Positions 43,690 through 61,068 of a stretch of DNA of 64,000 nt are shown piece by piece. The stretch comes from Spirosoma sp. KCTC 42546 (GTDB taxonomy: Bacteria; Bacteroidota; Bacteroidia; Cytophagales; Spirosomataceae). The position numbers and the translations under genes are program-made. The notes beneath the pieces were generated by a model. The model worked only from the letters and a program-made list of their open reading frames with translations, made no database searches and was not told the DNA's origin. Positions within the stretch are counted from its first letter, which is position 1; every line of letters starts with the position of its first letter. The DNA lies in contig NZ_CP041360.1 in the NCBI RefSeq assembly GCF_006965485.1, positions 5,932,501-5,996,500 on the forward strand, in the 5' to 3' direction.

Positions 43690-46600
43690 ATGAACGACTC
43701 ACTACGTCTTAGAAAAGAAACGGTGTGCATGCTGCTCTTCTGCATGCTGGCAACGGTTTGGGCAAATGCGCAAACACTGATTTCAGGGAAAGTCACCAGT
43801 GCTGAGGATCAGCAACCCATTGCGGGCGCCAATGTATTAGTAAAAGGCTCAACAACCAGTGGTACATTTACGGGTGCCGATGGGGGCTTTACCCTCTCCG
43901 TCCCAACCAACACCAGCCTGATTATTTCCTACATTGGCTATCAGGCGCAGGAAGTTGCGGTTGGTTCACAGACCAATTTTTCTGTTGTATTAATCCCCTC
44001 CATTACCTCACTCAGCGAAGTGGTGGTGACGGGTTACTCATCCGAAAAGAAAAAAGACATAACCGGTTCCGTGTCTATTGTCGACGTAAAAGCCTTAAAG
44101 TCAATTCCTTCAGGATCGGCCGTACAGGCACTTCAGGGCCAGGTGCCGGGGGTAACCATTCTAAACTCAGGGGCTCCGGGAAGTCCGAGCAATATCTTTA
44201 TTCGGGGGATCAGCTCTTTTGGTAATACCCAGCCGCTGGTCCTGATCGATGGTATTCAGGCGGAGCTGAATGATGTAAGCGCCACGGATATTGAGTCGGT
44301 TCAGGTGCTGAAAGATGCGGGCGCTGCTGCCATTTATGGGGTTCGGGGCTCGAATGGGGTCATCATCGTGACCACAAAAAAAGGCCGATCAGGGCAGCCA
44401 ACCATCGCGTATGATGCCTATTATGGCTCTCAACGACCGTTGCAGGGTAATGTGTTCAACTTAATGAACTCGTCGGATTTTGCCCGCCTGACCAAAGTGG
44501 CCTACCCCACTACGGGCCTGTTTCAGAATGGTTTACCCGATTATACCTTCCGGGGACCGGGCGCAACGGGCATTGGCAATACAGGTGATGCCGCTGTTGA
44601 TCCCGCGAAATACAACTTCGACGCCACCAATCCGGCCCGGAATTACCTGATTCAGGCGGTCAACAAAACCGGTACCGACTGGTTTCACGAACTGTTTAAA
44701 AACGCGCCGATGACCAGCCACAACCTGACGGCCAGTGGGGGCACCGATAAGTCGAACTACATGGTTTCGCTCAATTATTTCAATCAACAGGGCACCATGC
44801 TGAAGACCTACCTCAAGCGGTATTCGGGGCGCGTAAACACGCAGTTTAAAGTCAAAAACAACATCCGCATTGGCGAGAATGCGTATTTCTTCTACAAGCA
44901 AAACCCTGGTTTCGATAACCTGAGCAGCGGTAATCCTATTGCCTGGACCTACCGGGCCATGCCGATCATTCCGGTCTACGATATCAAAGGCAACTACGGT
45001 GGAACCTTTGCCGGACCCGAATTAGGTAGCTCCTCGAACCCGGTGGCTGTTCAGATGAACACGTCCAATAACAAGACCAATGCCTGGGATGTGGTTGGTA
45101 ACGTATTTGCCGAAGTCGACTTCCTGAAGCACTTTACGGCCCGCACCAGTTTCGGCGGAAGTATTGATAACCAGTACGCTACGAACTTTACGTTTACACC
45201 GTACAACAATTCGGAAGGAAATACGAACCCCAATTCGTTTGCTGAGGTGGCCTTGTACAACACGAATACCATGTGGACGAACACCCTGACGTATGCCAAT
45301 GCGTTCGGGAAGCATAACGTGAAAGTGATTGCCGGTTCGGAAGCCATTCGGAATTATGGTCGGGCGGTAACGGCCTCCAGCAGTGGGTTCTTTTCCACCA
45401 ACTACGATTACCTGACACTCAATAACGGTACCTCGAACGTAACCAATATCAGCAGCGCCTACGAAAACACCTTGTTCTCGCTCTTTGGCCGACTGGATTA
45501 CTCGTTCAATGAAAAATACCTGTTAGGCGTAACAGTTCGGCGCGATGGTTCGTCGCGGTTTGGGTCCGAGCGTCGGTACGGTACCTTCCCATCGGTATCG
45601 GCGGGTTGGCGCGTAACGGGCGAGGAATTCATGAAAAACGTGACCTGGCTCAATGACCTGAAACTGCGTGGCAGCTATGGCGTTCTGGGTTCTCAGAACA
45701 ACGTTAGTCCCCAAAATGCCTTCACCCTATTTGGTGGCTCGTTCTACGATGCGTATTACGACATTAGCGGTAGTGGTAAACTGGCCCAGGGTTTCGCGCA
45801 GACGAACATCGGCAACCCAAACACCGGCTGGGAACAAAACGTAGTCACTAACGTGGGTCTCGACGCTACGGTGTTCAACAAGCTGGACCTGTCGGTTGAG
45901 TATTACAAGAAGTCGATCAATGGGCTACTGTTTGCCCAGACCCTGCCCGCAACGGCTGGTGGTGCCACCGCACCTACCGTGAACGTTGGCGATATTCAGA
46001 ATAAGGGGGTTGACATTGGACTAACGTATAGAGGAACCGTTAGTAACGATCTTCAATTCAGCGTCGGTGCCAACATTACCACCTACAACAACAAGGTGAT
46101 CAATATCCCCTCGCCCACCTATTTCGAAACCGCCAATACCCAGAATCTGGGCAATGTAGTCCGAAACCAGGTTGGCCAGGCAGTGAGTTCGTTCTTTGGG
46201 TATAATGTGATTGGCCTGTTCAAAAGTGATGCTGAGGTAAGCGCGTCGCCTACGCAAAGCGGTGCCGCTCCGGGTCGCTTTAAATACCAGGATGTGAACG
46301 GCGACGGCAAAATTGACGCCAGCGACCGTACGTTCCTGGGCAGCCCCAACCCCGACTTTACCTATGGTCTGAATCTGGGCCTGACCTACAAGCGCTTCGA
46401 TTTTTCGACAACGCTCTATGGCTCGCAGGGGAACGAGATTTTCAATACGGTGAAATCGTTCACCCACTTCTTCAGTACGTACGTGGGTGCCAAAAGCAAC
46501 GATCTGTTAAACGCCTGGACACCTGAAAATCCGAATTCGAACATCCCAAAGATCGAATCAACCGGGTCGTTCAGTTCATCGGGCGTACCTAACTCGTTCT

Positions 46601-46851
46601 ACGTTGAGAACGGCTCGTTCCTGAAAATGCGCTCGCTGGTGATTGGCTACACGGTAAGCCCACTGCTGTTACGGAAGTACGGCCTGAATAAATTACGGGT
46701 TTATGCCCAGGGTGCCAACCTCTTCACGATAACGAAATACAGCGGCCTTGACCCTGAAGTAAGCGGGCTTAGCTCGTCGTTTGGTGTCGATTACGGCAAC
46801 TACCCCAGCAATCAGAAAAATTTCATCTTCGGCCTTAACGTCTCTTTCTAA
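43690..46851 (+). CDS. SusC/RagA-type TonB-linked outer-membrane transporter
   Basis: 1053 residues. Signal peptide 1-28 (ending WANAQ), CarboxypepD_reg-like domain (about 30-110: ISGKVTSAEDQQPIAGANVL), SEVVVTGYSSEKKKD linker, plug with NSGAPGSPSNIFIRGISSF, PLVLIDGIQ and VQVLKDAGAAAIYGVRGSNG, then a barrel that ends FIFGLNVSF. It pairs with the SusD at 46875 and should carry the substrate of the hydrolases encoded downstream (GH20, GH109). Expression is probably controlled by the GntR regulator through the dyads 43360-43546. Confidence 0.95.
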   Translation: MNDSLRLRKETVCMLLFCMLATVWANAQTLISGKVTSAEDQQPIAGANVLVKGSTTSGTFTGADGGFTLSVPTNTSLIISYIGYQAQEVAVGSQTNFSVVLIPSITSLSEVVVTGYSSEKKKDITGSVSIVDVKALKSIPSGSAVQALQGQVPGVTILNSGAPGSPSNIFIRGISSFGNTQPLVLIDGIQAELNDVSATDIESVQVLKDAGAAAIYGVRGSNGVIIVTTKKGRSGQPTIAYDAYYGSQRPLQGNVFNLMNSSDFARLTKVAYPTTGLFQNGLPDYTFRGPGATGIGNTGDAAVDPAKYNFDATNPARNYLIQAVNKTGTDWFHELFKNAPMTSHNLTASGGTDKSNYMVSLNYFNQQGTMLKTYLKRYSGRVNTQFKVKNNIRIGENAYFFYKQNPGFDNLSSGNPIAWTYRAMPIIPVYDIKGNYGGTFAGPELGSSSNPVAVQMNTSNNKTNAWDVVGNVFAEVDFLKHFTARTSFGGSIDNQYATNFTFTPYNNSEGNTNPNSFAEVALYNTNTMWTNTLTYANAFGKHNVKVIAGSEAIRNYGRAVTASSSGFFSTNYDYLTLNNGTSNVTNISSAYENTLFSLFGRLDYSFNEKYLLGVTVRRDGSSRFGSERRYGTFPSVSAGWRVTGEEFMKNVTWLNDLKLRGSYGVLGSQNNVSPQNAFTLFGGSFYDAYYDISGSGKLAQGFAQTNIGNPNTGWEQNVVTNVGLDATVFNKLDLSVEYYKKSINGLLFAQTLPATAGGATAPTVNVGDIQNKGVDIGLTYRGTVSNDLQFSVGANITTYNNKVINIPSPTYFETANTQNLGNVVRNQVGQAVSSFFGYNVIGLFKSDAEVSASPTQSGAAPGRFKYQDVNGDGKIDASDRTFLGSPNPDFTYGLNLGLTYKRFDFSTTLYGSQGNEIFNTVKSFTHFFSTYVGAKSNDLLNAWTPENPNSNIPKIESTGSFSSSGVPNSFYVENGSFLKMRSLVIGYTVSPLLLRKYGLNKLRVYAQGANLFTITKYSGLDPEVSGLSSSFGVDYGNYPSNQKNFIFGLNVSF

Positions 46852-46874: not shown

Positions 46875-48665
46875 ATGAACTATACCAAGTTTGTTGTCGG
46901 CTTATCGTGTTGCCTGGTATTTTTAACCGCAACCAATTCCTGCACCAAAGAATACCTGGAAGTTGGGGCCATCGGTGCCACCAGCGAAACAACTTTAGCC
47001 AACAAAGCCGGTGTAAATGGCTTGCTGGTGGGCGCGTACTCCCTGCTCGACGGCTGGGGTGTACCCAACACGACCTACTACTTCATTGGGGTCAGCAACT
47101 GGATTTACGGGGGCGTAACCTCCGATGATGCCCATACCGGTACGCAGGCATCCGCGCTGCCGCCGATGGAATCGGTCGAGAGTTATAAATACGATGCGAC
47201 GATGGCTCCGTTCAACAACAAGTGGATTGTGTTGTATGCTGGTGTGCAACGGGCAAATGATGTACTCCGGTTATTGGCGAAAGTAACCGACAATTCGATG
47301 ACGGCGGAGGAAATCAAGCAGGTGAAGGCCGAAGCCACGTTTTTACGGGCGGTCTATCATTTCGAAGCCGCTAAACTGTGGGAGAACGTACCGTATCTGG
47401 ACGAAACAGTGAGCTATGCCAACGGCAATTACAACGTAGCCAACACAGCTTCGATCTGGTCGAAACTGGAAGCCGATTTCAAATTTGCGGCCGATAACCT
47501 AAGCGCCACCAAACCCGATCCAGGCCGGGCTAATAGCTGGGCAGCGAAAGCGTTTCTGGCCAAGGTATACATGTTCCAGGATAAATACACCGAAGCAAAG
47601 CCCGTTCTGGCCGATGTGATTGCGAATGGCGTAACGGCCTCAGGCTTGAAATATGCGCTGGTCAATTTCTCCGACAATTTTAACCCATCGAAAAAGAACA
47701 GTGCGGAGTCGGTCTTTGCCGTGCAGATGTCCATCGACCAAACCTACCAGAACGGCAACTATGGCGATGCGCTGAACTTCCCGATGGGTGGCCCGGCTAC
47801 CTGCTGTGGGGCCTATCAGCCCTCGTTTAGCCTGGTCAATTCGTACAAAACCGACCCCAACACCGGCCTGCCGTTGCTGACAACCTTCAATGACTCCGAC
47901 ATAACTAATGATCAGGGTATCGAAAGCAGCGCGCCCTTTACGCCCTATACCGGAACGCTCGATGCGCGTCTGGATTACACGGTTGGTCGCCGGGGCATTC
48001 CGTATCTGGACTGGGGAGTTCACCCAGGTAAAGCCTGGATTCGGGTGCAGTCCGTAGCGGGTCCCTACAGCCCGATCAAGACGATTTATTATCAGGCAGC
48101 TCAGGCCACAACGTCCTTATTTTCGCGCTGGACATCCAACAATTACACCATGATTCGCTTTGCCGATGTGCTGCTGTGGGCGGCTGAGGTCGAAGTTGAA
48201 ATTGGCTCACTGGCCCAGGCGCAGACGTATGTCAATATGGTTCGGGCACGGGCTGCTAATCCAAACGGCTGGGTGAAGAAGTACGTCGACAACAGCGCTC
48301 CGTTGAAAGGCTTTACCAATGAACCCGCGGCCAACTACAAAGTGGGTTTATATACGACTGAATTCACGGCCAATGGGAAGGATTTTGCCCGTGAAGCGGT
48401 CCGGTTCGAGCGAAAGCTGGAGTTTGCCATGGAAGGCCACCGGTTCTTCGATCTGCGTCGCTGGGATAACGGAACGGGCTATATGGCCACAACCCTGAAC
48501 AACTATGTCCAGCACGAAACGTCGATTCCGGGCTACGACTTTACCTATATGAAAGGGGCAACGTTCACAAAAGGCAAGAACGAACTCTACCCAATTCCGC
48601 AGGCCCAGATCGATTTAAGCGTAACGAGTGGGGCACCGGTATTGAAACAAAATCCTGGATATTAA
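46875..48665 (+). CDS. SusD/RagB-type substrate-binding lipoprotein
   Basis: 596 residues, larger than the first SusD of the window. Lipoprotein signal with Cys23 (FLTATNSC). SusD hallmarks: GVNGLLVGAYSLLDGWG, FLRAVYHFEAAKLWENVPYL, AKAFLAKVYMFQDKY, MIRFADVLLWAAEVEVE, YVNMVRARAANPNG, FERKLEFAMEGHRFFDLRRW and the closing ELYPIPQAQIDLS. It lies 23 bases after the SusC gene, so they are co-transcribed. It binds the glycan or glycoconjugate at the surface. Confidence 0.95.
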   Translation: MNYTKFVVGLSCCLVFLTATNSCTKEYLEVGAIGATSETTLANKAGVNGLLVGAYSLLDGWGVPNTTYYFIGVSNWIYGGVTSDDAHTGTQASALPPMESVESYKYDATMAPFNNKWIVLYAGVQRANDVLRLLAKVTDNSMTAEEIKQVKAEATFLRAVYHFEAAKLWENVPYLDETVSYANGNYNVANTASIWSKLEADFKFAADNLSATKPDPGRANSWAAKAFLAKVYMFQDKYTEAKPVLADVIANGVTASGLKYALVNFSDNFNPSKKNSAESVFAVQMSIDQTYQNGNYGDALNFPMGGPATCCGAYQPSFSLVNSYKTDPNTGLPLLTTFNDSDITNDQGIESSAPFTPYTGTLDARLDYTVGRRGIPYLDWGVHPGKAWIRVQSVAGPYSPIKTIYYQAAQATTSLFSRWTSNNYTMIRFADVLLWAAEVEVEIGSLAQAQTYVNMVRARAANPNGWVKKYVDNSAPLKGFTNEPAANYKVGLYTTEFTANGKDFAREAVRFERKLEFAMEGHRFFDLRRWDNGTGYMATTLNNYVQHETSIPGYDFTYMKGATFTKGKNELYPIPQAQIDLSVTSGAPVLKQNPGY

Positions 48666-48737: not shown

Positions 48738-48822
48738 TTTCTGTCATTCCGACGTCAGGAGGAATCTCAAACTCCCATATCAGTCAAGCTTGAGATTCCT
48801 CCTGACGTCGGAATGACAGAAA
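48738..48822. repeat. Perfect 33-bp inverted repeat after the second SusD gene
   Basis: Arms 48738-48770 and 48790-48822, all positions paired, 19-base loop. The arm contains TGTCATTCCGACGTCAGG and GAGGAATCTCAA. This sequence type (GTCATTCCGACG...GGAGGAATCTC) resembles, from memory, a dispersed intergenic element of many Bacteroidota genomes. A run of ten As follows the right arm. Confidence 0.9.
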
Positions 48823-48922: not shown

Positions 48923-49720
48923 ATGCTGTTTTACGCATCGACTTATAGCGACATCAAGCAGGCAGGCAAAGACCAGGTTATCCTGCTACCACTGGGTGCC
49001 ATTGAACAACACGGCCCGCACCTGTCGGTCTCGACGGATACGGATATTGTTACCCAGCTGGCGCTACAGGCCGAAAAAGCGCTACCCGACACAGTGCTGC
49101 TCTGCCCGACCTTGCCCTATGGCTCCAGTCACCATCACCTGGCATTTGGCGGTACTATGAGTCTGGCCCCGGAATTATACACGCAGGTGATTATCGATCT
49201 GGTGCAGTCGCTGGTGCTCAGTGGGCACCAGCGGATCGTGCTGCTCAACGGGCATGGCGGCAACATTACCCCGGTTAAACAGGCGCTGGCCGTGTTGAGT
49301 AAACGCTTCGATGCGAGTCATCAGCCCACTATTGCCCTGGCCACTTATTGGGAATTAGCCGGTGGCGTGTTTGGCGGAGAGGCACCTATGGAAAGCCCGG
49401 CGCTGAGTCATGCCTGCGAATATGAAACGAGTCTGATGCTCCATCTTTTTCCCGAAAAAGTCTGGATGGATCGCGTAGAACGGGCGCAACGACCCGAACG
49501 AAATGGGTATATCGGCTGGGAAGACGACGAGCCGTATCGGGGCGTAACCGTATTCAAGCAAACCGAATTTATTTCAAGCAACGGCAGCAGCGGTGAACCT
49601 CAACTGGGCACTGCCCAAAAGGGAAAGCATTTGTTCAAGCATGCGCTACAGGCGCTGGTTATCTTTCTGGAGTCATTCAAGAGCTGGCCGTTATCCGAAA
49701 ATCTAACAACAAAACCATGA
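48923..49720 (+). CDS. Creatininase-family amidohydrolase
   Basis: 265 residues, cytoplasmic. Creatininase fold with metal-ligand motifs LPLGAIEQHGPHLSVSTDTD (residues about 21-40: Glu, His and Asp), HHLAFGGTMS, LLNGHGGN (about 110-117) and HACEYETSLML with the last Glu. Family members are binuclear-metal hydrolases that open cyclic amides (creatinine) or, in some cases, cyclic diketones of inositol breakdown. It is the first gene of the tightly packed metabolic run to 54884; its stop overlaps the next start (ATGA). The context suggests hydrolysis of a cyclic amide, lactam or ketone intermediate of sugar catabolism, not creatinine. Substrate not known. Confidence 0.88.
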   Translation: MLFYASTYSDIKQAGKDQVILLPLGAIEQHGPHLSVSTDTDIVTQLALQAEKALPDTVLLCPTLPYGSSHHHLAFGGTMSLAPELYTQVIIDLVQSLVLSGHQRIVLLNGHGGNITPVKQALAVLSKRFDASHQPTIALATYWELAGGVFGGEAPMESPALSHACEYETSLMLHLFPEKVWMDRVERAQRPERNGYIGWEDDEPYRGVTVFKQTEFISSNGSSGEPQLGTAQKGKHLFKHALQALVIFLESFKSWPLSENLTTKP

Positions 49721-50109
49721 GTAAACTGGAAATCAAACACCCCGACAAAGCCGTCAACACAGGAGCCTATTCATCGGGCATACTAGCGGGCGATTTGTTG
49801 TTCGTGAGCGGACAGGGGCCATTGGATTTAGTAACGGGAGAGGTGCAGCATGGGACGATTGAAGAAGAAACCCTGCTGACGCTGTCGCACATTCAAAAGA
49901 TTGTGGAAGCCGCGGGTGGCACCATCGACGACATTGTGAAGTGTACCGTCCATCTGGAAGATATTCGCGAATTCGACCGTTACGATGCCGCCTATGGCTC
50001 ATTCTTCACCGGCATACGCCCAGCCCGAACCACCGTTCAATCGGTATTGTCGGATGGGATCAAGATCGAAATTGACGCCATTGCCCGAATTACGCCCAAA
50101 CAAGCCTAA
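49717..50109 (+). CDS. RidA-family (YjgF/UK114) protein
   Basis: 130 residues. The family pattern is clear: GAYSSGILAGDLLFVSGQGPLDL (about 17-39), IVEAAGGTIDDIVKCTVHLEDI, and the C-terminal RPARTTVQSVLSDGIKIEIDAIARI with the conserved Arg (about 107-109) that binds the carboxylate of the substrate. RidA proteins hydrolyse reactive 2-imino or enamine acids to keto acids and ammonia. In this operon it may clear such an intermediate after dehydration of an amino-sugar acid. Start overlaps the stop of the creatininase gene. Confidence 0.9.
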   Translation: MSKLEIKHPDKAVNTGAYSSGILAGDLLFVSGQGPLDLVTGEVQHGTIEEETLLTLSHIQKIVEAAGGTIDDIVKCTVHLEDIREFDRYDAAYGSFFTGIRPARTTVQSVLSDGIKIEIDAIARITPKQA

Positions 50110-50120
50110 CCCAGTACGTT

Positions 50121-51083
50121 ATGACATCGAAAATACGCATCGGCACCGTAGGACTCGGCTTAATGGGTAGCAGTATCGCTACCTGTATTCTGGCGGCTGG
50201 TCACGCGGTTACATCGCTGATTAAAGAGATCGAGACCGCCGATGAAGCGCGGGTTCGTATCCTGGGTTATCTGCGCCAACTGGAACAGGAAGGGTTGCTA
50301 ATCGACACACCCGAAACGATTATTGAGCGCCTGACCATCACCGACGATGTCTCGTTGTTAAGCAACCATACCGTTGTGATTGAGTCGATTACCGAAAACA
50401 TCGATGAGAAGAAAAGCCTGTATCAGCGCCTGGAAACCGTCCTCTCGCCTACCGCTATCATCGGTAGTAACACATCGGCCATTCCGGTATCGGTGTTACA
50501 AAGCGGACTCAAACATCCCGAGCGGCTGTTGGGCATCCACTGGGCAGAACCGGCGCACATTACGCGATTCATGGAGGTCATCTGCGGAAAAGATTCCGAT
50601 CTAACCTATGCCTACGAGATCGTTGCGCTGGCCGAAAGCTGGGGCAAGGAACCCTCGTTGCTGAAGAAAGATATACGGGGATTTATTACCAACCGGATTA
50701 TGTACGCCATGCTCCGGGAGTCCTTCAATCTGGTCGAGAATGGTTACGCCACTATTGAGGATGTGGACCGCTCGCTTCGGAACGACCTGGGTTACTGGAT
50801 CACCTTCGCCGGGCCGTTTCGGTTCATGGATCTCACCGGCATTCCGGCTTACCTGACCGTCATGAAAGACCTCTTTCCCGAACTCAGCAACAGCACCGAA
50901 ACGCCGAAACTGATGGAAGACCTGGTGGCGTCGGGGGCGAAAGGTGTACAGAATGCACAAGGGTTTTACCCTTATACACCCGAGTCAGCCAAAGATTGGG
51001 AAGAGAAATTCATTGATTTCAGCTACGACATCCGGAAACTCGCCCAAAAACATACACCCACTTCCTCCGAGGACGCCCAATGA
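50121..51083 (+). CDS. 3-hydroxyacyl-CoA dehydrogenase-family oxidoreductase
   Basis: 320 residues. Rossmann motif GTVGLGLMGSSIA (about 8-20), VIESITENIDEKKSLY (the E-x-I-x-E region), SNTSAIPVS, catalytic-type His in GIHWAEPAHI, and a C-terminal helical domain (GFITNRIMYAMLRE, LGYWITFAGPFRFMDLTG). The family oxidises 3-hydroxy groups, usually of acyl-CoA, but non-CoA members act on L-gulonate, carnitine or sugar acids. Given the neighbours, a 3-hydroxy sugar-acid or 3-hydroxycarboxylate dehydrogenase is more plausible than fatty-acid oxidation. It overlaps the next gene by 4 bases. Confidence 0.87.
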   Translation: MTSKIRIGTVGLGLMGSSIATCILAAGHAVTSLIKEIETADEARVRILGYLRQLEQEGLLIDTPETIIERLTITDDVSLLSNHTVVIESITENIDEKKSLYQRLETVLSPTAIIGSNTSAIPVSVLQSGLKHPERLLGIHWAEPAHITRFMEVICGKDSDLTYAYEIVALAESWGKEPSLLKKDIRGFITNRIMYAMLRESFNLVENGYATIEDVDRSLRNDLGYWITFAGPFRFMDLTGIPAYLTVMKDLFPELSNSTETPKLMEDLVASGAKGVQNAQGFYPYTPESAKDWEEKFIDFSYDIRKLAQKHTPTSSEDAQ

Positions 51084-52213
51084 CACGCATTCAATCCATA
51101 AAGGCCACCGAAGTGATTGTACCGGCCAAACCGGGCAGCCTGAACTCCGATGAGGTGGTCGACAAAGATTCGGCCTTTGCCAAAAAATTCCTGACGGGTG
51201 AGCGGTGGACCGAGTTCGCCAATCAACCCAAATGGATCATTGAACTCACACTCGCCAATGGCCTGATTGGTATTGGCGAGACTTACCGCAGTGCCTCAGG
51301 CGCAATACTCCACCGGGCCATGCAGGAATTGGTCGGACAGGATGTACTGAAACTGAACTGGCGCCGACTGCCCGTTACCGACCAGCGGATTTATGAAGCC
51401 TTCGAGTCGGCGGTGCTGGACGTAGTGGGCAAGTTGTTGAACGTACCCGTGTCCCAACTCCTCGGCGGGGCATACCGCAACCGGATCGACTGCTTCGGCT
51501 GGACCGGGCGACGCACCCCCGAAGATGCCGCCCAGAAAGCCTATGATGCCATGCAAAAGGGCCATAAGGCGTTCAAATTCAAGTGTTCCGACGAAGATCC
51601 CGTTCGGCTTTGGACGGAAGCCATTCGGGACAAATGCGGGGACGGTATCAAAATCCTGCTCGACCCAAACCAGCGCTGGACCGATGTCGAGACAACCCTC
51701 CGGTTAATGGAGGGCGTCGACAAAACCGTCATGCTGGGACTGGAAGATCCCATTTTGCACGCCGATGTAGCCGGGTTCAAGTACCTGCGCGAGACGCTCG
51801 GCATGCCCATGTATCGGCATATTTCACTGCCCTACACGCAGGACATCCGCGACATGATCGCCTTTGTCCGGGCCGATGCGGTCGATGGATACAACTTTAA
51901 TGGATCGGCTTACAACTCGGTGCTACTGGCCGAAATCGCCCATCTGGAGGGCAAAGCCTGCTGGCGGGGTTCGGAAGTGGATTTAGGGATTTCAGAAACG
52001 ATGGGCCTGCACATTGCCGCAGCCAGCATCAACTGCACAATCCCTTCTGATTTGTTCGGCGAACTGGTCCGCACCGACGACCTGATTACGGAACCTATCC
52101 GATTCGAGAATGGCGCAGCTTTGGTTCCAACCGGCGCGGGACTGGGTATCGAACTGGATTACACCGCCCTGGATACCTACAAAACGAATCAATTTTTACT
52201 CAGCAGCTTATGA
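51080..52213 (+). CDS. Enolase-superfamily protein (mandelate racemase/muconate lactonising type), atypical active site
   Basis: 377 residues, cytoplasmic. The N-terminal capping domain (1-125) and the TIM barrel are recognisable. K-x-K is present (AFKFKC, Lys166 and Lys168), as are metal ligand Asp195 (LLDPNQRW) and Glu222 (GLEDPI). Where the superfamily has the third acidic ligand (usually G-E), the sequence reads MYRHIS with His247. Where the opposite-face base Lys (K-x-D) or His would sit it reads DGYNFNG (269-275). The usual proton-abstraction pair is therefore changed. Family members in such operons dehydrate sugar acids. Either a divergent dehydratase or epimerase, or a new activity. 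It overlaps both neighbours by 4 bases, so it is translationally coupled. Confidence 0.85.
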   Translation: MTRIQSIKATEVIVPAKPGSLNSDEVVDKDSAFAKKFLTGERWTEFANQPKWIIELTLANGLIGIGETYRSASGAILHRAMQELVGQDVLKLNWRRLPVTDQRIYEAFESAVLDVVGKLLNVPVSQLLGGAYRNRIDCFGWTGRRTPEDAAQKAYDAMQKGHKAFKFKCSDEDPVRLWTEAIRDKCGDGIKILLDPNQRWTDVETTLRLMEGVDKTVMLGLEDPILHADVAGFKYLRETLGMPMYRHISLPYTQDIRDMIAFVRADAVDGYNFNGSAYNSVLLAEIAHLEGKACWRGSEVDLGISETMGLHIAAASINCTIPSDLFGELVRTDDLITEPIRFENGAALVPTGAGLGIELDYTALDTYKTNQFLLSSL

Positions 52214-53151
52214 ATAAGTCGATTCAGTCGTGGGCCATCCTGTTTTTCTGCAACCTGATCTGGGCCTTTCATTTCACCAGTATCAAGCTGACCCAGGATC
52301 AGGTTGGCCCGTATTTTACCGTCTGGGCACCCATGCTGCTAGCCACGATTTTCCTGGCTCCGTTCGTGATCCGGGATTTCCGAAAGGGCGGCAAGAAGCT
52401 GAAGGATATCCTGATTTTCGTGCAGTTGGCAGCTCTGGGCGCGTTCCCGTCGCAGGTACTGATGACCTGGGGAACACAGTATTCACTGGCCAGCAACGCA
52501 GCTATTCTGGTCATGACCCTGCCCGTCATTACGGCCGTTTTCGCCTTCCTGATTCTGAAAGAGAAGATGAACACTGCCCGCTGGATCAGCTTCGCCATTG
52601 CGATTATTGGGGTGGCCCTCTGCTCAACCGACGACATTAAACGGGTAGACTTAAGCTCGCGCTATGCCCTGGGCAATGGGCTCATTTTCCTGGCCATTCT
52701 GGGCAATGCGTACTACAACGTGGGATGTAAAAAAGTATCGAGCCAGTACACCGAAATGGAGATGGTTTTTTACACCTATCTGGTCATGTCCATCCTGCTG
52801 ACGCCACTTGTGCTGTATTACGAGCCCGAGATGTTTTCTAAAATCCCCGCCTTTACCACCAACACCTGGATCGGGATGATCTCGCTCACACTCTTTCATA
52901 ATTTTCTGTCGATGCTCCTGTTTTTTAAGGCGTTGAAGAATCTGGATGCCACGCAGGTTGCTTTATCCAACTACCTCATTACGTTCATGGGCTTACCCAT
53001 TGCCGCCATCTGGCTCGGCGAAACCCTGAACCAACAGGCCATCATTGGCGGTGTGCTTGTGCTCGTCTCAACCCTTATTTTATCGATCGTCGATAGTAAA
53101 GTACAACAAAAAAAAGTAGCTAATATCAATCAAGAACCGGCAAAGTTATGA
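52210..53151 (+). CDS. EamA/DMT-family permease
   Basis: 313 residues, inner membrane. Ten hydrophobic helices in two EamA repeats: the first starts WAILFFCNLIWAFHFTSIKLTQ, the second LGNGLIFLAILGNAYYNVGCKK. It ends in a basic tail (VQQKKVANIN). Drug/metabolite transporter members exchange small metabolites. In this locus it would import the periplasmic breakdown product or export a by-product. It overlaps the enolase-type gene and the DHDPS-type gene by 4 bases each, so it should serve the same pathway. Confidence 0.9.
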   Translation: MNKSIQSWAILFFCNLIWAFHFTSIKLTQDQVGPYFTVWAPMLLATIFLAPFVIRDFRKGGKKLKDILIFVQLAALGAFPSQVLMTWGTQYSLASNAAILVMTLPVITAVFAFLILKEKMNTARWISFAIAIIGVALCSTDDIKRVDLSSRYALGNGLIFLAILGNAYYNVGCKKVSSQYTEMEMVFYTYLVMSILLTPLVLYYEPEMFSKIPAFTTNTWIGMISLTLFHNFLSMLLFFKALKNLDATQVALSNYLITFMGLPIAAIWLGETLNQQAIIGGVLVLVSTLILSIVDSKVQQKKVANINQEPAKL

Positions 53152-54101
53152 CTAACACAGACAACGAACTGTTTGGCGTAGTACCCATCATTCCAACACC
53201 ATTCACCGAAAATGAGGAGATCGACGAAGACGCGCTCCGTAGTTTAATTGACTTTGCCATCGACGGTGGTATCAAGGCCGTTTGCCTGCCCGCCTACGCC
53301 AGCGAATTTTACAAACTCACCGACGACGAAAAATTACAGGTTGTTCGGGTGGCGGTAGAACGGGCTGCGGGTCGGTTGAAAATCGTCGCTCAGTCGAACC
53401 ACCCCTCGCTGAAAGTTGCCATCAAACTGGCGCAGGCTAACGTGCAGGCCGGTGCCGACGTTATTTCGCTGGCGGTTCCCCGAATTTTCAGCTTACCCGA
53501 AAACTCCCTGAAAGCCTATCTGTCGGAGTTTTTACAGTCGATTCCGAACACGCCCGTTCTGATTCAGGACTTCAACCCCGGCGGTTCGTCGATCAGCGTA
53601 GGGTTCATCAAAGAGCTGATGGACGAGAATCCGAACTTCAAATACCTGAAGCTGGAAGAACCCCTGTGTGCGCCCAAGTTCGAGCAGATCATTCAGGCCA
53701 CGAACGACAAAATCGGCCTGTTCGAAGGCTGGGGCGGCTTGTACATGCTCGAACTGGTGCCCATTGGTATCCGCGGAGTTATGCCGGGACTGGCCGTCGC
53801 CGATATTCTGCAAAAGATTTTCAGCCTGCGTTCCAGCGGAGAAGATACCAAAGCGTTCGAACTGTTTGAGCGGGTGATGCCGCAGATATTCTTCTCGTTG
53901 CAAAACATGGAATTGTTCCATTATGCCGAAAAAGAACTGTTGGTTGCCCGTGGCGTTTTGAGCAACAGTATCGCCCGAAAAGCTGCCTATATTCCCGATC
54001 CGTCATCGATCAGCTACATCAAGGAGCTAAACCAGCGCATCCTCGACATCGTCAACGACGAAAAGTACGCCATCCGGCCGGTAGAGAACAGCCTTTATTA
54101 A
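53148..54101 (+). CDS. Dihydrodipicolinate synthase/N-acetylneuraminate lyase-family protein
   Basis: 317 residues, (beta/alpha)8 aldolase or dehydratase. Lead-in VVPIIPTPFTENEEID, and the Schiff-base Lys is probably Lys168 in FKYLKLEEP. The conserved Tyr of the Y-N-x-P motif is missing: the position reads LIQDFNPGG (Gln140-Asp141), as in a branch of the family that acts on deoxy-keto sugar acids. The general reaction is aldol cleavage or dehydration of a 2-keto-3-deoxy acid by way of an enamine. With the enolase-type enzyme and SDR in the same operon, a 2-keto-3-deoxy sugar-acid substrate is likely. A sialic-acid-type substrate is possible, but the usual lyase motifs (G-S-T-G-E) are not seen. 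Confidence 0.85.
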   Translation: MTNTDNELFGVVPIIPTPFTENEEIDEDALRSLIDFAIDGGIKAVCLPAYASEFYKLTDDEKLQVVRVAVERAAGRLKIVAQSNHPSLKVAIKLAQANVQAGADVISLAVPRIFSLPENSLKAYLSEFLQSIPNTPVLIQDFNPGGSSISVGFIKELMDENPNFKYLKLEEPLCAPKFEQIIQATNDKIGLFEGWGGLYMLELVPIGIRGVMPGLAVADILQKIFSLRSSGEDTKAFELFERVMPQIFFSLQNMELFHYAEKELLVARGVLSNSIARKAAYIPDPSSISYIKELNQRILDIVNDEKYAIRPVENSLY

Positions 54102-54140
54102 GCTTATCCCCATCGATTTAGACAAAAACGAAAACGTATC

Positions 54141-54884
54141 ATGGGAGAATTTAGTGGACAGGTTGTACTAATTACCGGAGCCGCATCCGGCATTGGGTTG
54201 TCCATCGCACACAAACTACTGACCGAAGGGGCACAGGTTGGCCTGCTCGATTTTAACGAAACAGCTTTACAGCAGGCGTTTGAAAAATATGGCCCGGATG
54301 CCTTGCTCATCGGCATCGACATTACCGATGAAGCTCGGGTAGCACAGGCGGTTTCGCAGGTGCAGGAACAGTTTGGCAAGATTGACGCCCTCATCAATTG
54401 CGTCGGCATTACGGGCGTCACAAACGTACAAAGCCATGAGGTGAGCAGCGAAAACCTGCACAAGGTGTTTGAAGTCAACTTCATGAGCAGTTTCTACACC
54501 TCCAAAGCGGTATTGCCGTTCATGCTGGCCCGCAGTTACGGGCGCATCCTGCACATTGCCTCTATTGCGGGCAAAGAAGGGAACGCCGGTATGCTGGCCT
54601 ATTCAGCCTCGAAAGCCGCCGTGATCTGCATGGCGAAGGTGCAGGGGAAAGAGTACGCCGAGAAAGGCATCACGGTCAACGCGCTGGCCCCGGCGGTGAT
54701 TCAAACGCCCCTGGTCGATGCCATGCCCGAGGTACAGGTTAAGTACATGACCGATAAAATTCCAATGAAACGTTGTGGTACACTCGATGAAGCCGCTAAC
54801 CTGGCCGCTTACATCGTATCGCCCAAGAACAGTTTCACTACCGGTTTCACCTTCGATTTATCGGGGGGACGGGCCACATATTAG
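54141..54884 (+). CDS. SDR-family dehydrogenase
   Basis: 247 residues, classical short-chain dehydrogenase. TGAASGIG (about 13-20), Asp at the end of strand 2 (LLDFN, predicting NAD preference), NCVG in place of the usual NAG, Ser in IASIAG and YSASK with catalytic Tyr and Lys. C-terminal FTTGFTFDLSGGRATY. It probably oxidises a sugar or sugar acid hydroxyl. It is 39 bases after the aldolase-type gene and is the last of the tightly packed set; a palindrome follows its stop at once. Confidence 0.92.
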   Translation: MGEFSGQVVLITGAASGIGLSIAHKLLTEGAQVGLLDFNETALQQAFEKYGPDALLIGIDITDEARVAQAVSQVQEQFGKIDALINCVGITGVTNVQSHEVSSENLHKVFEVNFMSSFYTSKAVLPFMLARSYGRILHIASIAGKEGNAGMLAYSASKAAVICMAKVQGKEYAEKGITVNALAPAVIQTPLVDAMPEVQVKYMTDKIPMKRCGTLDEAANLAAYIVSPKNSFTTGFTFDLSGGRATY

Positions 54885-54933: not shown

Positions 54934-55053
54934 CTGGCGCGAGCATTGGCTCGTGTCCACAATTTCGTCAGTATTTACTGACGCCTTGACAATTCTATAC
55001 ATGCGTCAGTAAATACTGACGAAATTATGGACACGAGCCAATGCTCGCGCCAG
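54934..55053. repeat. 50-bp inverted repeat before the GH20 gene
   Basis: Arms 54934-54983 and 55004-55053, 49 of 50 positions paired, 20-base loop. Nested inside each arm is a second palindrome around CGTCAGTATTTACTGACG. The right arm ends 13 bases before the GH20 start codon. Likely a strong RNA structure that separates the metabolic genes from the hydrolase genes, or a repeat element. Confidence 0.93.
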
Positions 55054-55066
55054 CTAACCAGACATC

Positions 55067-57133
55067 ATGAAAAACTTCTGGATCAGTTGTATTATCGTTT
55101 TTTCCTGGCTAGGCGCAGTTTCGGCGCAGCAACGTCCTGTATTGCTGCCAGCACCGCAGTCCATTTACTACGGGCAGGGGGAATTGCCTGTCCAGAACCT
55201 GACGGTGTACGTACCGTCCAACGCAACAGCCGATGTCGTCTTTGCGCTGAGTCAGCTTAGGAAATTACTTGCTGAACGCAGTGGAAAACCCGTACTGGTG
55301 AGCCCATCGGCAACGGCATCAACTATTCGGTATTCGGTTAAATCAGCCGGTCAGGAATTACCGGGCACCAACGAGGCTACCAACGGAAATACCCGCGAGC
55401 ACTACACGCTGACCATCACCCAAAAAGGCATCGACATTACCGCCCAAACCTCAACGGGACTGTACTACGCCGTACAAACGATTCGGCAATTGATTCAGGG
55501 CGAGGGTACGAAGGCCTCGCTTCCTCTCGTCACGATCAGCGACCAGCCCAAACTGGCTTACCGGGGCGTAATGATGGATTTTGCGCATGGCGGATTGCTG
55601 ACGGTCGATGAAATCAAAAAGCAGATCGACTTTTTGGCCCGCTGGAAAACCAACCAATATTACTTCTACAACGAGGTTAGCATTCAACTGGACGGCTATT
55701 CGACGCTGAATTACAAGGCGAATTATTCGCAGGCGCAAATCAAAACGATCATTGCCTACGCCCGCGAGCGGCACATGGATGTGATTCCGTTCGTCAATTT
55801 CTACGGACACCTGCATGAGCTGATTCGCAACGAGAAATACGCGTCGCTGGCCATCGGTCACTACGGCCATGAAATGGACCCACGTAATCCGGCCGTGCAA
55901 ACCCTGCTGAAAAACTGGATCAAGCAATACACAACGTTGTTCCAGAGTCCGTTCATTCATGTCGGCTTCGACGAAACCTGGGAAACCAAGCGGCTGGCCG
56001 GTTCGTCTCCCACAAAACTGGACCCCGAATCCCTGTATATCCAGCAGCTCAGTTTCGTGAGCAACGAGTTCAAACAGTACGGTAAAACGCTGTTGGCCTG
56101 GACGGATATGAACGCGTTTTACCCGAATATTCTAGCCAAATTTCCCAAAGATGTCATCCCGGTTATCTGGGAATATTCGCCCGATACAACCGCTATCAAC
56201 AACTACTTAAATCCAGTTCTGAAGGAAAAGAAACCGTTTTTTATTCAACCCGCCGTTTCGGGCTGGGGGCATATTTACCCCTCTGCCAACTATACCTACG
56301 AAAACATAAACCTCTGCCTGAAAGCGGGCCTTCAGCACAACACGCTCGGCTTTATCACTTCCGTCTGGACCGATTCTGTCGAACCCTTTGTTCGGGCTTC
56401 CTGGCTGTTTATGGCCTATGGCTGCATTGCGGCCTGGCAGGGCACTGTGCCCGATAAGACCACCTTTGCCGGACACTATAGCGCGGTCGTTTACCCGGCC
56501 CTAGCGCAGGATATGCAGGCCGCTTTCGACCATATCGCAACGGCCGGTCAGTACCTCGAAAAGTGCCTGGGCAAGAACACCCAAAGCCTACCTCGGGGCA
56601 CCCTCGTGGAAAGCTGGTCGAATCCATTTTCGGCCTATTATCTGGCCAACACCAACGAACACAAGGCCGATTTTGAGCAGGTTCGTACGCACACGGAGGA
56701 AGCACAGGCACGGCTTATCAGTGCGCTTCAGGCGGCAAGTCCAGCCGACACCAGTTTCATTCAGTCGATGCTGGTATCGGCCCGGCTGATCAACTATTCG
56801 GCCAGTCGGTTTTTGTGGGCCAAAGCCATTACAGATCGCTGGAACGATGGAATGATGGCCCAAAAGAAGGATGATTACGTATTCTATGATCTGACGTATC
56901 CCTGCCACAGCCTGCTGGTCGATGCCATGGACGAAACGGGTGAACTCAAGCAAGCCTATGCACAGGCCTGGCTCTCGGAGAATATGCCGTACCGACTAAA
57001 TACCATGCTGGGACGCTTCGATGTCGATTTTGGGCTCTGGCGAAAGCTGCATCTGAAACTACTGGACTATAAGATTCAGAAGAAGACTGAACCCCTGAAA
57101 TCCTTTGAACTGCTCTTTACCCCCGACTTTTAA
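55067..57133 (+). CDS. Glycoside hydrolase family 20 beta-N-acetylhexosaminidase
   Basis: 688 residues. Signal peptide 1-20 (AVSAQ). An N-terminal GH20b-like domain (25-150: RPVLLPAPQSIYYGQGELPV). TIM barrel from YRGVMMDFAHGG (165-176) with the catalytic Asp-Glu pair D302-E303 in HVGFDETWE; VSIQLDGYSTL replaces the more common HWHLTDDQ-like strand. Retaining GH20 enzymes remove terminal beta-linked GlcNAc or GalNAc by substrate-assisted catalysis. About 200 extra helical residues form the C-terminus (from TTFAGHYSAVVYPAL). Exported to the periplasm or surface, it would trim what the SusC/SusD pair imports. It follows the large palindrome at 54934. Confidence 0.87.
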   Translation: MKNFWISCIIVFSWLGAVSAQQRPVLLPAPQSIYYGQGELPVQNLTVYVPSNATADVVFALSQLRKLLAERSGKPVLVSPSATASTIRYSVKSAGQELPGTNEATNGNTREHYTLTITQKGIDITAQTSTGLYYAVQTIRQLIQGEGTKASLPLVTISDQPKLAYRGVMMDFAHGGLLTVDEIKKQIDFLARWKTNQYYFYNEVSIQLDGYSTLNYKANYSQAQIKTIIAYARERHMDVIPFVNFYGHLHELIRNEKYASLAIGHYGHEMDPRNPAVQTLLKNWIKQYTTLFQSPFIHVGFDETWETKRLAGSSPTKLDPESLYIQQLSFVSNEFKQYGKTLLAWTDMNAFYPNILAKFPKDVIPVIWEYSPDTTAINNYLNPVLKEKKPFFIQPAVSGWGHIYPSANYTYENINLCLKAGLQHNTLGFITSVWTDSVEPFVRASWLFMAYGCIAAWQGTVPDKTTFAGHYSAVVYPALAQDMQAAFDHIATAGQYLEKCLGKNTQSLPRGTLVESWSNPFSAYYLANTNEHKADFEQVRTHTEEAQARLISALQAASPADTSFIQSMLVSARLINYSASRFLWAKAITDRWNDGMMAQKKDDYVFYDLTYPCHSLLVDAMDETGELKQAYAQAWLSENMPYRLNTMLGRFDVDFGLWRKLHLKLLDYKIQKKTEPLKSFELLFTPDF

Positions 57134-57306: not shown

Positions 57307-58383
57307 ATGAACAATATCCAGTTCTTAAACCCTATTGATGGCGATATGCTGCATGCCCGTGATGGTGTGACAACAGCTGATGGCTTGGAAATTGATATAC
57401 AGGTGTCCGCGCCCTCGTCTCATTATCTAACCATCAATGGAATCGGGACGAGTTATAAGCAGGGCGTCTTTTCGGGGAAAGTGCGGTTGAATCAGTATGC
57501 CAATACGATTACCGTTCACGACTGCACCACCGCCGAGACTAAGTCGATTCAGGTGTACTGGCTACCGAATTTTGCGAGCCACTATCGCCTGTCGATCGAC
57601 GATAACATCTGGTTTCTGCGGGATATTTATCAACAGAAAGACAACTATCAGTCGCTGTTCGATAATCCCTATCTGGGATTTTTGAAGCAGGTTCATACCA
57701 CCTACGGCACTAAAATTCACCTCAACCTTTTTTACCAGACGGAGGGCTTCAACCTATCGCAGTTTCCCGACCGTTTCAAGGCAGAATGGCAGGCGAATGC
57801 CGATTGGCTTCGACTGAGTTTCCATGCCTGGGGTGAATTCCCTGACCGACCCTACCAGCAGGCTGGCTATGAGCAGGTGAAGCACGATTGCGCCATCGTA
57901 AAAGAGCAGATTCTACGATTTGCGGGCGAGGCTGTGATGGGTCCCGTAACAACGCTGCATTGGGGAGAAGCTACGGTTGAAGGCTCGCGGGCCCTGCGCG
58001 ACGCGGGCTACATCGGGCAATTGGGCTATTTCAACGTCGATGATGAGTTGCCCCCCGTTTCGTACTACCTCAACGTGGAGCAACGACGGCACATGAAAAA
58101 ACGGTTTGTCTGGCACGATAATCAGGAAGACATCACTTTCATTCGGAGCAGTATCGTCATCGACAAAACAGAGTTACCCGACATTGTTCCATTCCTGGAT
58201 AACTACGCGAACCAGCCATCGGGCCTGCCGCCTTTTGTCGATTTACTCGTTCACGAACAATATTTCTACCCCTTTTACGAAGCCTATCAACCCGACTTCC
58301 GGGATCGCATTCTAACAGCGGTGAAATGGGCTACCGATAAGGGGTATACGCCCGCCTTTTTGGGTGAGGCATTATTTAATTAA
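57307..58383 (+). CDS. NodB-fold (polysaccharide-deacetylase-like) protein
   Basis: 358 residues, no signal peptide, so cytoplasmic. Residues 1-95 form a beta-sandwich-like N-terminal part (NPIDGDMLHARDGVTTADG). From residue 97 the sequence RLSIDDNIWFLRDI carries the Asp-Asp of a NodB-type fold, followed by IHLNLFYQTEGFNLSQ, LRLSFHAWGEFPDRPY with a His in the metal-site position, and VTTLHWGEATVEGSRALRDAGY. This family of unknown function is widespread in Bacteroidota and Firmicutes; I know of no defined substrate. From context it might deacetylate or otherwise alter an amino sugar. It sits between two glycosidase genes and is bounded by inverted repeats. Confidence 0.7.
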   Translation: MNNIQFLNPIDGDMLHARDGVTTADGLEIDIQVSAPSSHYLTINGIGTSYKQGVFSGKVRLNQYANTITVHDCTTAETKSIQVYWLPNFASHYRLSIDDNIWFLRDIYQQKDNYQSLFDNPYLGFLKQVHTTYGTKIHLNLFYQTEGFNLSQFPDRFKAEWQANADWLRLSFHAWGEFPDRPYQQAGYEQVKHDCAIVKEQILRFAGEAVMGPVTTLHWGEATVEGSRALRDAGYIGQLGYFNVDDELPPVSYYLNVEQRRHMKKRFVWHDNQEDITFIRSSIVIDKTELPDIVPFLDNYANQPSGLPPFVDLLVHEQYFYPFYEAYQPDFRDRILTAVKWATDKGYTPAFLGEALFN

Positions 58384-60066: not shown

Positions 60067-61068
60067 ATGACTACCAGTCGACGAACATTTTTGAAACAGA
60101 CATCCCAAAGTTGCGCGGCTTTGCTGCTGGCCCCTACGCTGCTCCGGGCCAGACCAACGGTGGCAACCGGCAAACGGGTGGGTATTATTGGGCTGGATAC
60201 CTCGCACAGTACAGCCTTTGTCAAGGCCCTCAACGGCCCGGATGCCAATGCCAGTTTCCTGGGCTATAAAGTCGTGGTGGCTTATCCGCAGGGCAGTAAA
60301 GATATCGAGAGTAGCACCTCGCGCGTTCCGGCCTACACGGAAGAAGTAAAAAAGCAGAACGTCGAAATCGTCAGCTCCATCAGCGACTTACTTAAAAAAG
60401 TTGACGTGGTGTTGCTGGAAACCAACGATGGTCGGCTGCATCTGGAACAGGCCTTGCAGGTATTGAAGGCAGGCAAACGCGTGTTTATCGACAAACCCGT
60501 TGCGGCTTCGTTAGCCGATGCCATCGCCATTTTCGAAGCTTCTAAAAAATACAACATTCCCCTGTTTTCGGCCTCGTCGCTTCGGCACATCAAAGGCATT
60601 GAAAAAGTAGACAAAAGCAAGGTCGTGGGGGCCGATACGTTTAGTCCCGCCGTTCTCGAAAAGACCCATCCCGATTTTTACTGGTACGGCATTCATGGAG
60701 TTGAAACGCTTTACACCGTTATGGGCACGGGCTGCAAACAGGTGGTTCGCGTGCATACCGACGGCACCGACATTATTGTAGGCACCTGGGCCGATGGGCG
60801 CGTTGGCACCGTTCGCGGTACCCGCACGGGCAAGCACGATTACGGCGGTACGGTGTTTACCCAAACGGGCAATCTTGTACTAGGCCCCTACGGTGGTTAT
60901 GAACCGCTTTTGCAGGACATTATTACCTATTACGAGACAGGAGAGGTGCCCGTTACACCCGAAGAAACCATCGAGATTTTTGCCTTTATGGAAGCAGCGG
61001 ATGAAAGCAAGCGTCGCGGGGGTGTTGCCGTTACCCTCGAAAGTGTACTGGCGAAAGCGAAGAAATAA
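60067..61068 (+). CDS. Tat-exported Gfo/Idh/MocA-family protein
   Basis: 333 residues. Twin-arginine signal (TSRRTFLKQ, residues 3-11, with hydrophobic run LLLAPTLL). Rossmann start RVGIIGLDTSHSTAF (about 37-51), the family EKP-like IDKPVAASLADAIA (about 140-153), and GIHGVETLYTVMGTG. The GLDTSHS variation is typical of a subgroup of unknown function. It lacks the GH109 signatures seen in the 58467 protein. It probably acts on a sugar or cyclitol in the periplasm with a bound nicotinamide cofactor. It is followed after 18 bases by the DegT gene and is likely co-transcribed with it. Confidence 0.85.
   Translation: MTTSRRTFLKQTSQSCAALLLAPTLLRARPTVATGKRVGIIGLDTSHSTAFVKALNGPDANASFLGYKVVVAYPQGSKDIESSTSRVPAYTEEVKKQNVEIVSSISDLLKKVDVVLLETNDGRLHLEQALQVLKAGKRVFIDKPVAASLADAIAIFEASKKYNIPLFSASSLRHIKGIEKVDKSKVVGADTFSPAVLEKTHPDFYWYGIHGVETLYTVMGTGCKQVVRVHTDGTDIIVGTWADGRVGTVRGTRTGKHDYGGTVFTQTGNLVLGPYGGYEPLLQDIITYYETGEVPVTPEETIEIFAFMEAADESKRRGGVAVTLESVLAKAKK

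Follow-up and report, generated by a model that had tools for sequence, protein, structure and literature searches.

The window, a 64,000-nucleotide stretch of the genome of Spirosoma sp. KCTC 42546 (a single contig of 8,664,091 bases), contains a tightly packed set of seven genes at positions 48923-54884 of the forward strand. The set is a real, conserved block that recurs in other Bacteroidota in the same order, more than chance would give. It lies among amino-sugar genes, and three of its members, encoding enolase-superfamily, RidA-family and creatininase-family proteins, form a core that crosses phyla. Together the seven genes would most likely encode a cytoplasmic, non-phosphorylating (oxidative) route for an aldonic acid derived from an N-acetylhexosamine. 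Such a route would be the counterpart, without a pyridoxal phosphate (PLP) enzyme, of the GlcNAc1A pathway encoded by the ong genes. The case for this reading and the case against it are about evenly matched, and confidence in any single step is lower than in the route as a whole. In what follows, labels beginning with L denote locus stretches and labels beginning with G denote genomes; G000 is the genome of KCTC 42546 itself.

The seven-gene set

Each of the seven open reading frames is intact, with an ATG start and no internal stop, and encodes a protein with a Pfam domain above cut-off. The first gene (48923-49720) encodes a creatininase-family metal amidohydrolase (PF02633, E=2e-62), which is a proposed N-deacetylase or, alternatively, a lactonase or lactamase. 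It is followed by genes for a RidA-family protein (49717-50109; PF01042, Ribonuc_L-PSP), the proposed enamine/imine hydrolase, and a 3-hydroxyacyl-CoA-dehydrogenase-like NAD enzyme (3HCDH; 50121-51083; PF02737, 3HCDH_N, and PF00725, 3HCDH), the proposed substrate of which is a non-CoA hydroxy acid. The enolase-superfamily protein (51080-52213; PF13378, MR_MLE_C, and PF02746, MR_MLE_N) is a putative aldonate or aminoaldonate dehydratase. An EamA-family inner-membrane transporter comes next (52210-53151; PF00892 in two stretches), then a DHDPS-family class I enzyme (53148-54101; PF00701), a candidate 2-keto-3-deoxyhexonate aldolase or dehydratase. The last gene encodes an SDR dehydrogenase (54141-54884; PF13561/PF00106), which may be an FAH-linked 2-keto-3-deoxyhexonate 4-dehydrogenase or a sugar dehydrogenase. 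The junctions, in gene order, are -4, +11, -4, -4, -4 and +39 bases; the gaps are those between RidA and 3HCDH (11 bases) and between DHDPS and SDR (39 bases). A sequence-only reading of this DNA had described the seven families, with 4-base overlaps at four of the six junctions, behind a SusC/SusD pair and ahead of GH20 and GH109 genes. The open reading frame check and Pfam bear out the families and the overlaps, and Pfam also bears out the neighbours.

Conservation

A scan with the enolase, using one genome per species, gave 36 distinct loci from titled genome records. They come from Spirosoma, Arsenicibacter, Larkinella, Runella, Rudanella, Dyadobacter, Ferruginibacter, Flavitalea, a Puia metagenome-assembled genome (MAG) and other Bacteroidota MAGs. 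The complete set (all seven genes no more than 7 kb from the enolase and on one strand) is present in 30 of the 36, and the order of the genes present is kept in all 36. The sequence-only reading had suggested looking for the set in other genomes; there it recurs as an ordered block. Two of the six incomplete loci lie at contig ends (L028 and L049), one lacks the SDR (L035) and three lack RidA (L037, L046 and L048). Ten further loci overlap the titled ones, at least G472 being the genome of L046; eight of them are complete, and G308 and G472 are without RidA. In G011 all seven proteins have 92-99% identity to those of the window. Several locus genes are split by frameshifts in L052 (Spirosoma telluris) and in G015, possibly through sequencing error.

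The enolase, DHDPS and creatininase proteins are all matched in an identical nine of 59 genomes (G000 included). An even draw of 395 Bacteroidota genomes contains five with the enolase, of which two are Spirosoma; the distribution of the set across the phylum is thus patchy. The 3HCDH protein is matched in 24 of the 59 genomes, in nine at 81-100% identity and in 15 only via a paralogue at 49-59%. This paralogue is common in Spirosoma without the set (L081, L083-L087). A common pathway for it was considered and rejected: the six stretches varied, with M19-dipeptidase-like genes in two, RidA in two, and also a class III aminotransferase and PhyH.

Amino-sugar setting

An amino-sugar gene (GH20, GH109, a NodB-like gene, NagA or NagB) is present in 32 of the 36 titled loci; in ten control stretches of 17-20 kb the same queries find none of these genes. 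GH20 accounts for 26 of these, L056 has GH109 and a NodB-like gene, four have NagA, and L042 has a NagB-like gene only. The NagA-bearing loci are L045, L047, L050 and L055, in which the NagA/NagB route genes lie upstream of the set; NagA of L045 scores above its curated cut-off. The four loci without an amino-sugar gene are L028, L049, L051 and L054. A GH123 gene (PF13320) adjoins the set in G308 and G611. These surroundings make nitrogen in the substrate likely, as the sequence-only reading had expected.

Of the 59 genomes, 26 have NagA; eight of these are among the nine that carry the set, and 18 are among the 50 that lack it. In five of the nine Spirosoma genomes (G000, G015, G017, G020 and G032) NagA and the set are no more than about 25 kb apart. 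From this distribution the set is taken to be an addition to the N-acetylglucosamine (GlcNAc) route and not a part of it. Since GlcNAc has a NagA/NagB route in the same locus, N-acetylgalactosamine (GalNAc) might be the likelier sugar to need the set, although the argument is weak. The AgaS profile has a single match in G000 (52.6 bits against a cut-off of 529.2) and hence no clear member there; this only hints at an answer concerning GalNAc.

An FAH-family hydrolase gene lies directly 3' of the SDR in L045, L047, L051, L054 and other relatives; the SDR in the window has no adjoining FAH gene. The one relative's FAH protein that was scored has 2,4-didehydro-3-deoxy-L-rhamnonate hydrolase as its best NCBIfam match (217.8 bits, cut-off 500). 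An FAH gene 29 kb past the window was considered and rejected; it is 49% identical to the relatives' FAH but has other genes around it.

A shared core in a sister clade

Among plasmids the window enolase has one outlying match (34.4% identity over 98%), which lies on a megaplasmid of the actinomycete Embleya sp. NBC_00888. The gene order there (L088, where the record carries no annotation) is ABC sugar-transporter genes, SDR, RraA-like aldolase, enolase, RidA, creatininase and PfkB kinase, and the last two junctions overlap by 4 bases. The best NCBIfam match of the PfkB kinase is 2-keto-3-deoxygluconate (KDG)/KDGal kinase, at 189.1 bits and thus below the cut-off of 400. No KDG kinase is present among the window genes scanned, and Embleya alone has the KDG/KDGal-kinase-like gene.

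The sister enolase clade shares 34-38% identity and the same active-site residues with the window enolase. The best 120 of 934 matches in a protein search (8000 candidates scored) include actinomycete, planctomycete, chloroflexian, spirochaete, Trueperaceae and Bacteroidota names. Gene context was examined in Embleya and in Bacteroidota. The even draw of 395 Bacteroidota genomes contains no member of the sister clade. Of 294 sampled genomes from the family of G308 (probably Chitinophagaceae), 11 match the enolase, six of them with the sister clade. All six sister loci (L103-L108) have the order SDR, enolase, RidA fused behind an extra domain, and creatininase; RidA was established in each by protein comparison, a cruder script having missed it in L104 and L107. 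An RraA-type aldolase gene lies ahead in five of the six, in place of DHDPS. Neighbouring genes include GH20 (L103, L106 and L107), GH123 (L104) and GH109 (L107), and the transporters are of the NagP-like MFS type (L104, L105 and L108) or the SSS type (L106 and, by similarity, L107). Both aldolases, DHDPS and RraA, are found in L112 (G471).

The enolase, RidA and creatininase are regarded as the core because both clades share these three. What is exchanged between the clades is the transporter (EamA, MFS, SSS or ABC) and the aldolase (DHDPS, class I, or RraA, class II). The best reading is that the core feeds a 2-keto-3-deoxyhexonate branch. Distant homologues of the DHDPS protein (29% identity) and the SDR (32% identity) are also encoded on a Streptomyces plasmid, directly after a gene of the dihydroxy-acid/aldonate dehydratase family.

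An enolase tree of 42 rows was built from 15 of the 37 window-clade sequences and 20 of the 125 from the sister clade, drawn at random but with the window and Embleya always kept, and from seven paralogues in G000. The window and sister clades each fall on one side of a branch, with support of 96/67 and 98/97. Rooting and sisterhood are unsure, given the great length of the outgroup branches and a possible wrong frame in one outgroup row (L002).

Active sites and family membership

The 37 window-clade enolases are those of 40 rows that pass 85% coverage without a stop; the 125 of the sister clade comprise Embleya (twice), the six loci and listed proteins of 370-385 residues. At 63 positions conservation is at least 95% in each clade, and these include K166, K168, D195, E222, H247, N272, E299 and D301. 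Asp195, Glu222 and His247, at the ends of strands 3, 4 and 5, are proposed to be metal ligands, with the K166-x-K168 pair on strand 2. The ligands and the Lys pair of an acid-sugar-dehydratase site, placed by alignment, are thus kept in both clades, the third ligand being His. The H247 column of the HMMER alignments, presumably the third metal-ligand position, is occupied by Asp in 2p88, an N-succinyl amino-acid racemase, and by Asn in the probable glucarate dehydratase 3vdg. The galactarate dehydratase II of Oceanobacillus probably also has His as its third ligand. The AlphaFold model of the enolase (pLDDT 82.7) matches the superfamily, and galactarate dehydratase II appears at Foldseek ranks 12, 19, 34 and 35; the closest solved relative is the N-succinyl-Arg/Lys racemase 2p88.

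In the creatininase-family protein, E28, H30, D39, H111, H163 and E166 are kept in both clades (37 window rows against seven sister rows); E28, H30, D39, H111 and E166 are presumed, from creatininase, to be the probable metal ligands. R104 of RidA, which is taken to be catalytic, is likewise kept in both (33 window rows against seven sister rows). The closest solved relative of the 3HCDH protein is FHMPC 5-dehydrogenase (4om8). The DHDPS protein is closest to the L-2-keto-3-deoxyarabonate (L-KDA) dehydratases 7c0c and 3fkk; alignment by eye indicates that it shares a Lys with L-KDA dehydratase and that the usual Tyr motif is lost in both, the family roles of this Lys and motif being assumed here.

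Several known functions were tried against NCBIfam and rejected. The creatininase-family protein reaches 68.5 bits for IolN of inositol metabolism (cut-off 245), 105.8 bits for creatininase of creatinine degradation (cut-off 235) and 140 bits for MftE of mycofactocin clusters (cut-off 172). The enolase reaches 25.5 bits for L-rhamnonate dehydratase (cut-off 393), and for other sugar-acid enzyme families no listed score of a set protein is at cut-off. The alternative that the set is a known inositol, fucose or amino-acid pathway, which the sequence-only reading had allowed for, is therefore not realised by these comparisons.

Proposed pathway and alternatives

On the proposed route, the SusC/SusD pair would import the substrate across the outer membrane, GH20 and GH109 would release the amino sugar and EamA would admit it through the inner membrane. 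One of the two dehydrogenases would oxidise C1. The acetyl group would be removed by the creatininase-type hydrolase, or by a 358-residue NodB-like protein encoded downstream. The enolase-superfamily enzyme would then dehydrate the 2-amino (or 2-acetamido) aldonate to an enamine, and RidA would hydrolyse the enamine or imine to 2-keto-3-deoxyhexonate and ammonia. The DHDPS-family enzyme would cleave this acid to pyruvate and glyceraldehyde; in some relatives the SDR and the FAH hydrolase would provide a second exit, to pyruvate and glycerate. The order of steps, the choice between GlcNAc and GalNAc as substrate and what each dehydrogenase does are inferred. The sequence-only reading had assigned oxidation, dehydration and cleavage of a sugar acid to the SDR, dehydratase and aldolase. 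Its last two steps are supported, in that the dehydratase, pyruvate-aldolase and RidA fit a 2-keto-3-deoxy route, a distant version of which has a KDG-kinase-like gene. Its first is less certain: the SDR adjoins FAH in several relatives, which points to a later step. The cyclic amide that it had in view for the creatininase-type hydrolase is one candidate substrate.

A number of points weigh against such a route. The loci share descent and so are not independent tests. RidA is missing in L037, L046, L048, the truncated L049 and G308, and would therefore be dispensable or supplied from elsewhere in these. The stretches examined for L051 and L054 contain no amino-sugar gene. The ten control stretches are not random: eight had been retrieved for a different purpose, and the other two make up the first 40 kb of the window. 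G011 and G025 have NagA elsewhere in the genome, G027 has it on a separate contig, and none is found in G035. The kinase and FAH scores are under curated cut-offs. The creatininase-family protein may not be a deacetylase, because the 358-residue NodB-like protein and NagA compete for that role. PLP chemistry may yet contribute, since a DegT aminotransferase gene adjoins the set in 10 of 37 stretches, although the copy in the window looks exported. The simplest scheme would need neither a second dehydrogenase nor a second possible fate for the keto acid, and the activities and substrate of the set are predicted from the genes.

It is unlikely, but deserves consideration, that the set degrades a partner acid from the same glycan (for example a uronic acid, a hexosaminuronic acid or the lactyl moiety of muramic acid) and that GH20 and NagA/NagB take the amino sugar. 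With NagA-type genes next to the set, GlcNAc already has a route; and since 18 of the 50 genomes that lack the set have NagA, the set would add something else. In L045, L047, L050 and L055 the set is followed by a large FAD/Fe-S hydroxyacid-dehydrogenase-like gene, and uronate-derived acids are common substrates of enolase-superfamily enzymes. Heparinase II/III-like genes (a cluster with one member tested by Pfam) point the same way, but occur in only three of the 36 loci. Furthermore, RidA and an amidohydrolase-type partner are hard to explain if the substrate has no nitrogen, and NagA is not found in the six sister-clade loci within the stretches examined.

The substrate could also be an N-acylated or cyclic amino-acid derivative. 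The enolase would then be a racemase or epimerase, creatininase and RidA would hydrolyse amides and imines, and EamA would transport amino acids. The racemase 2p88 is the closest solved relative of the enolase, and Spirosoma 3HCDH paralogues lie beside M19-dipeptidase-like genes (two stretches) and a class III aminotransferase (one). However, position 247 is Asp in 2p88 and His in the window enolase, and the beta-6 Lys of the racemase, presumed catalytic, is apparently not kept (alignments by eye). The neighbours include glycosidases, RraA/DHDPS aldolases and a KDG-kinase-like gene, and this explanation is improbable. A non-phosphorylating deoxy-sugar route of the L-fucose/L-rhamnose type, in which dehydratase, SDR and FAH lead to pyruvate and lactate, is very improbable. 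It would account for the FAH gene after the SDR, with its rhamnonate-pathway best match, and for the hydroxyacid-dehydrogenase-like gene nearby. The score of the enolase for L-rhamnonate dehydratase speaks against it, and it has no place for creatininase and RidA; no fucosidase or rhamnosidase family appears among the Pfam-scanned neighbours, although neither was the object of a dedicated search.

A wider claim can be made for the amino-sugar-acid route. It may be a widespread, undescribed pathway in which an Asp-Glu-His enolase family replaces PLP elimination, creatininase carries out the deacetylation and RidA acts as a dedicated enamine hydrolase, with one core and differing branches in Spirosomataceae, other Bacteroidota and Actinomycetota. 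This claim is tentative and may well not hold in full.

Flanking genes and the longer locus

Upstream of the set, on the same strand, are genes for a GntR/FCD-family protein (42378-43016; Pfam GntR and FCD), the probable regulator of the locus, a SusC-type TonB-dependent transporter (43690-46851; Pfam Plug, CarbopepD_reg_2 and TonB barrel) and a SusD-type glycan-binding lipoprotein (46875-48665; Pfam SusD_RagB). Members of the regulator cluster are found in 15 of 37 stretches (the 36 loci and the window). SusD and creatininase genes are 257 bases apart, and between them lies a long palindromic element, an inverted repeat with 36-nucleotide arms that are 97% complementary (48738-48822). Its core pattern has 24 copies genome-wide, mostly as facing pairs, against none for a control pattern; it is a REP- or MITE-like interspersed repeat. 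A second inverted repeat (54934-55053), a hairpin with 51-nucleotide arms that are 98% complementary, lies between SDR and GH20; a 19-base piece of it has no further copy within the window. In other loci a protein of about 700 residues is encoded directly 5' of the seven genes, in two copies in L051 and three in L054; the one tested, from L054, starts with a twin-arginine-type (Tat-type) sequence and matches no Pfam family.

Downstream, again on the same strand, is a GH20-family beta-N-acetylhexosaminidase-like enzyme (55067-57133; PF00728 and PF02838). The D-E pair of its FDETWET motif, presumably catalytic, is kept across 26 aligned sequences. The 358-residue protein (57307-58383) is conserved in the locus, has an N-terminal Ig-like domain and no obvious signal peptide by eye, and has no Pfam family above cut-off. 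Among the matches listed, VIA-align includes NodB-fold deacetylases; the 50 listed by Foldseek include none and are weak, with many Ig-like proteins and some sialic acid esterases. The structural model suggests a probable NodB-fold amino-sugar N-deacetylase. A GH109-type NAD-dependent glycosidase follows (58467-59888; PF21252 and PF01408), with an RR-type N-terminus by eye. The same-strand run goes on with a GFO/IDH/MocA oxidoreductase (60067-61068; PF01408), a DegT-family PLP aminotransferase (61087-62502; PF01041) and a protein with a neutral-ceramidase-like N-terminal domain (62499-63860; PF04734). The adjoining oxidoreductase and aminotransferase both have twin-arginine-type N-termini by eye, which suggests that NAD and PLP chemistry on sugars might take place in the periplasm.

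The run extends beyond the window into L057, which encodes a propeller-like protein, a PVC-type haem-binding protein (TIGR02604, 248.9 bits, cut-off 122.2), HiPIP, a GFO oxidoreductase, a NagP-like MFS transporter (378.8 bits, below the cut-off of 625), NagA (TIGR00221, 292.6 bits, above the cut-off of 225.65) and a NagB-like protein (TIGR00502, 113.8 bits, below the cut-off of 236.9). From gene order and strand, GntR to NagB reads as one amino-sugar locus; the two palindromic elements interrupt the run.

Significance and comparison with known systems

RidA proteins are usually regarded as general detoxifiers of stray enamines; a conserved operon that joins RidA to a dehydratase and an amidohydrolase would give RidA a dedicated, testable substrate. 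If the proposed route is correct, an oxidised amino sugar is turned into ordinary carbon metabolites in an undescribed way. Functions would be supplied for a creatininase clade and for an enolase-superfamily clade whose members now bear source names such as muconate cycloisomerase or glucarate dehydratase, and Bacteroidota and Actinomycetota would have a second chemical solution for oxidised amino sugars.

The NagA/NagB route for GlcNAc shares the locus in G000. It differs from the set in that it is phosphorylating, has its own deacetylase, and NagA occurs in genomes that lack the set. The galactarate dehydratase II of Oceanobacillus iheyensis (2oqy, 3es7 and 3hpf) is also of the enolase superfamily and is found in both the Foldseek and profile lists, but it has 18-19% identity to the set enolase, its substrate is a diacid sugar and it is not known to cluster with creatininase or RidA. 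Non-phosphorylating pentose and aldonate pathways resemble the set in that its DHDPS enzyme is closest to L-KDA dehydratase, and the Streptomyces plasmid has the dehydratase-DHDPS-SDR order. In contrast, the set has an enolase and not an IlvD-type dehydratase, contains creatininase, RidA and 3HCDH in addition, and lies in an amino-sugar setting.

No description of such a set was found by title in the open-licence literature, among the matches listed. The sequence-only reading knew of no described pathway with this combination; that holds for the combination of families, but the ong (oxidative chitin utilisation) cluster of Pseudoalteromonas prydzensis is a functional analogue. In the part of the ong paper drawn on here (PMC9537276), the cluster encodes the deacetylase OngB, OngC, OngD and KdgK. 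OngD is a RidA protein that is needed for growth on GlcNAc1A; the pathway thus combines deacetylase and dehydrating deaminase with a RidA that is indispensable, and the authors leave the role of this RidA open. GH20, TonB-dependent uptake, deacetylation, dehydration/deamination and RidA are common to ong and the set, these roles being proposed ones in the set. RidA within a catabolic operon, as in ong, is found here at 49717-50109 and is absent in a few relatives. The ong pathway includes 2-keto-3-deoxygluconate and a KDG kinase; here a kinase-like gene is found in Embleya only. No lytic polysaccharide monooxygenase is present among the Pfam-scanned proteins, although none was searched for. 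Whereas ong has a D-aminoacylase-type deacetylase (OngB), a PLP-type deaminase (OngC) and an SSS transporter, creatininase, enolase-superfamily and EamA proteins are proposed instead in the set. None of the seven genes belongs to the OngB or OngC families; the DegT PLP aminotransferase lies downstream, and the SSS transporter type recurs in the sister loci L106 and L107 (by similarity). Compared with ong as described in that source, what would be new is the enzyme families proposed for deacetylation and dehydration, and the logic of the pathway has a precedent.

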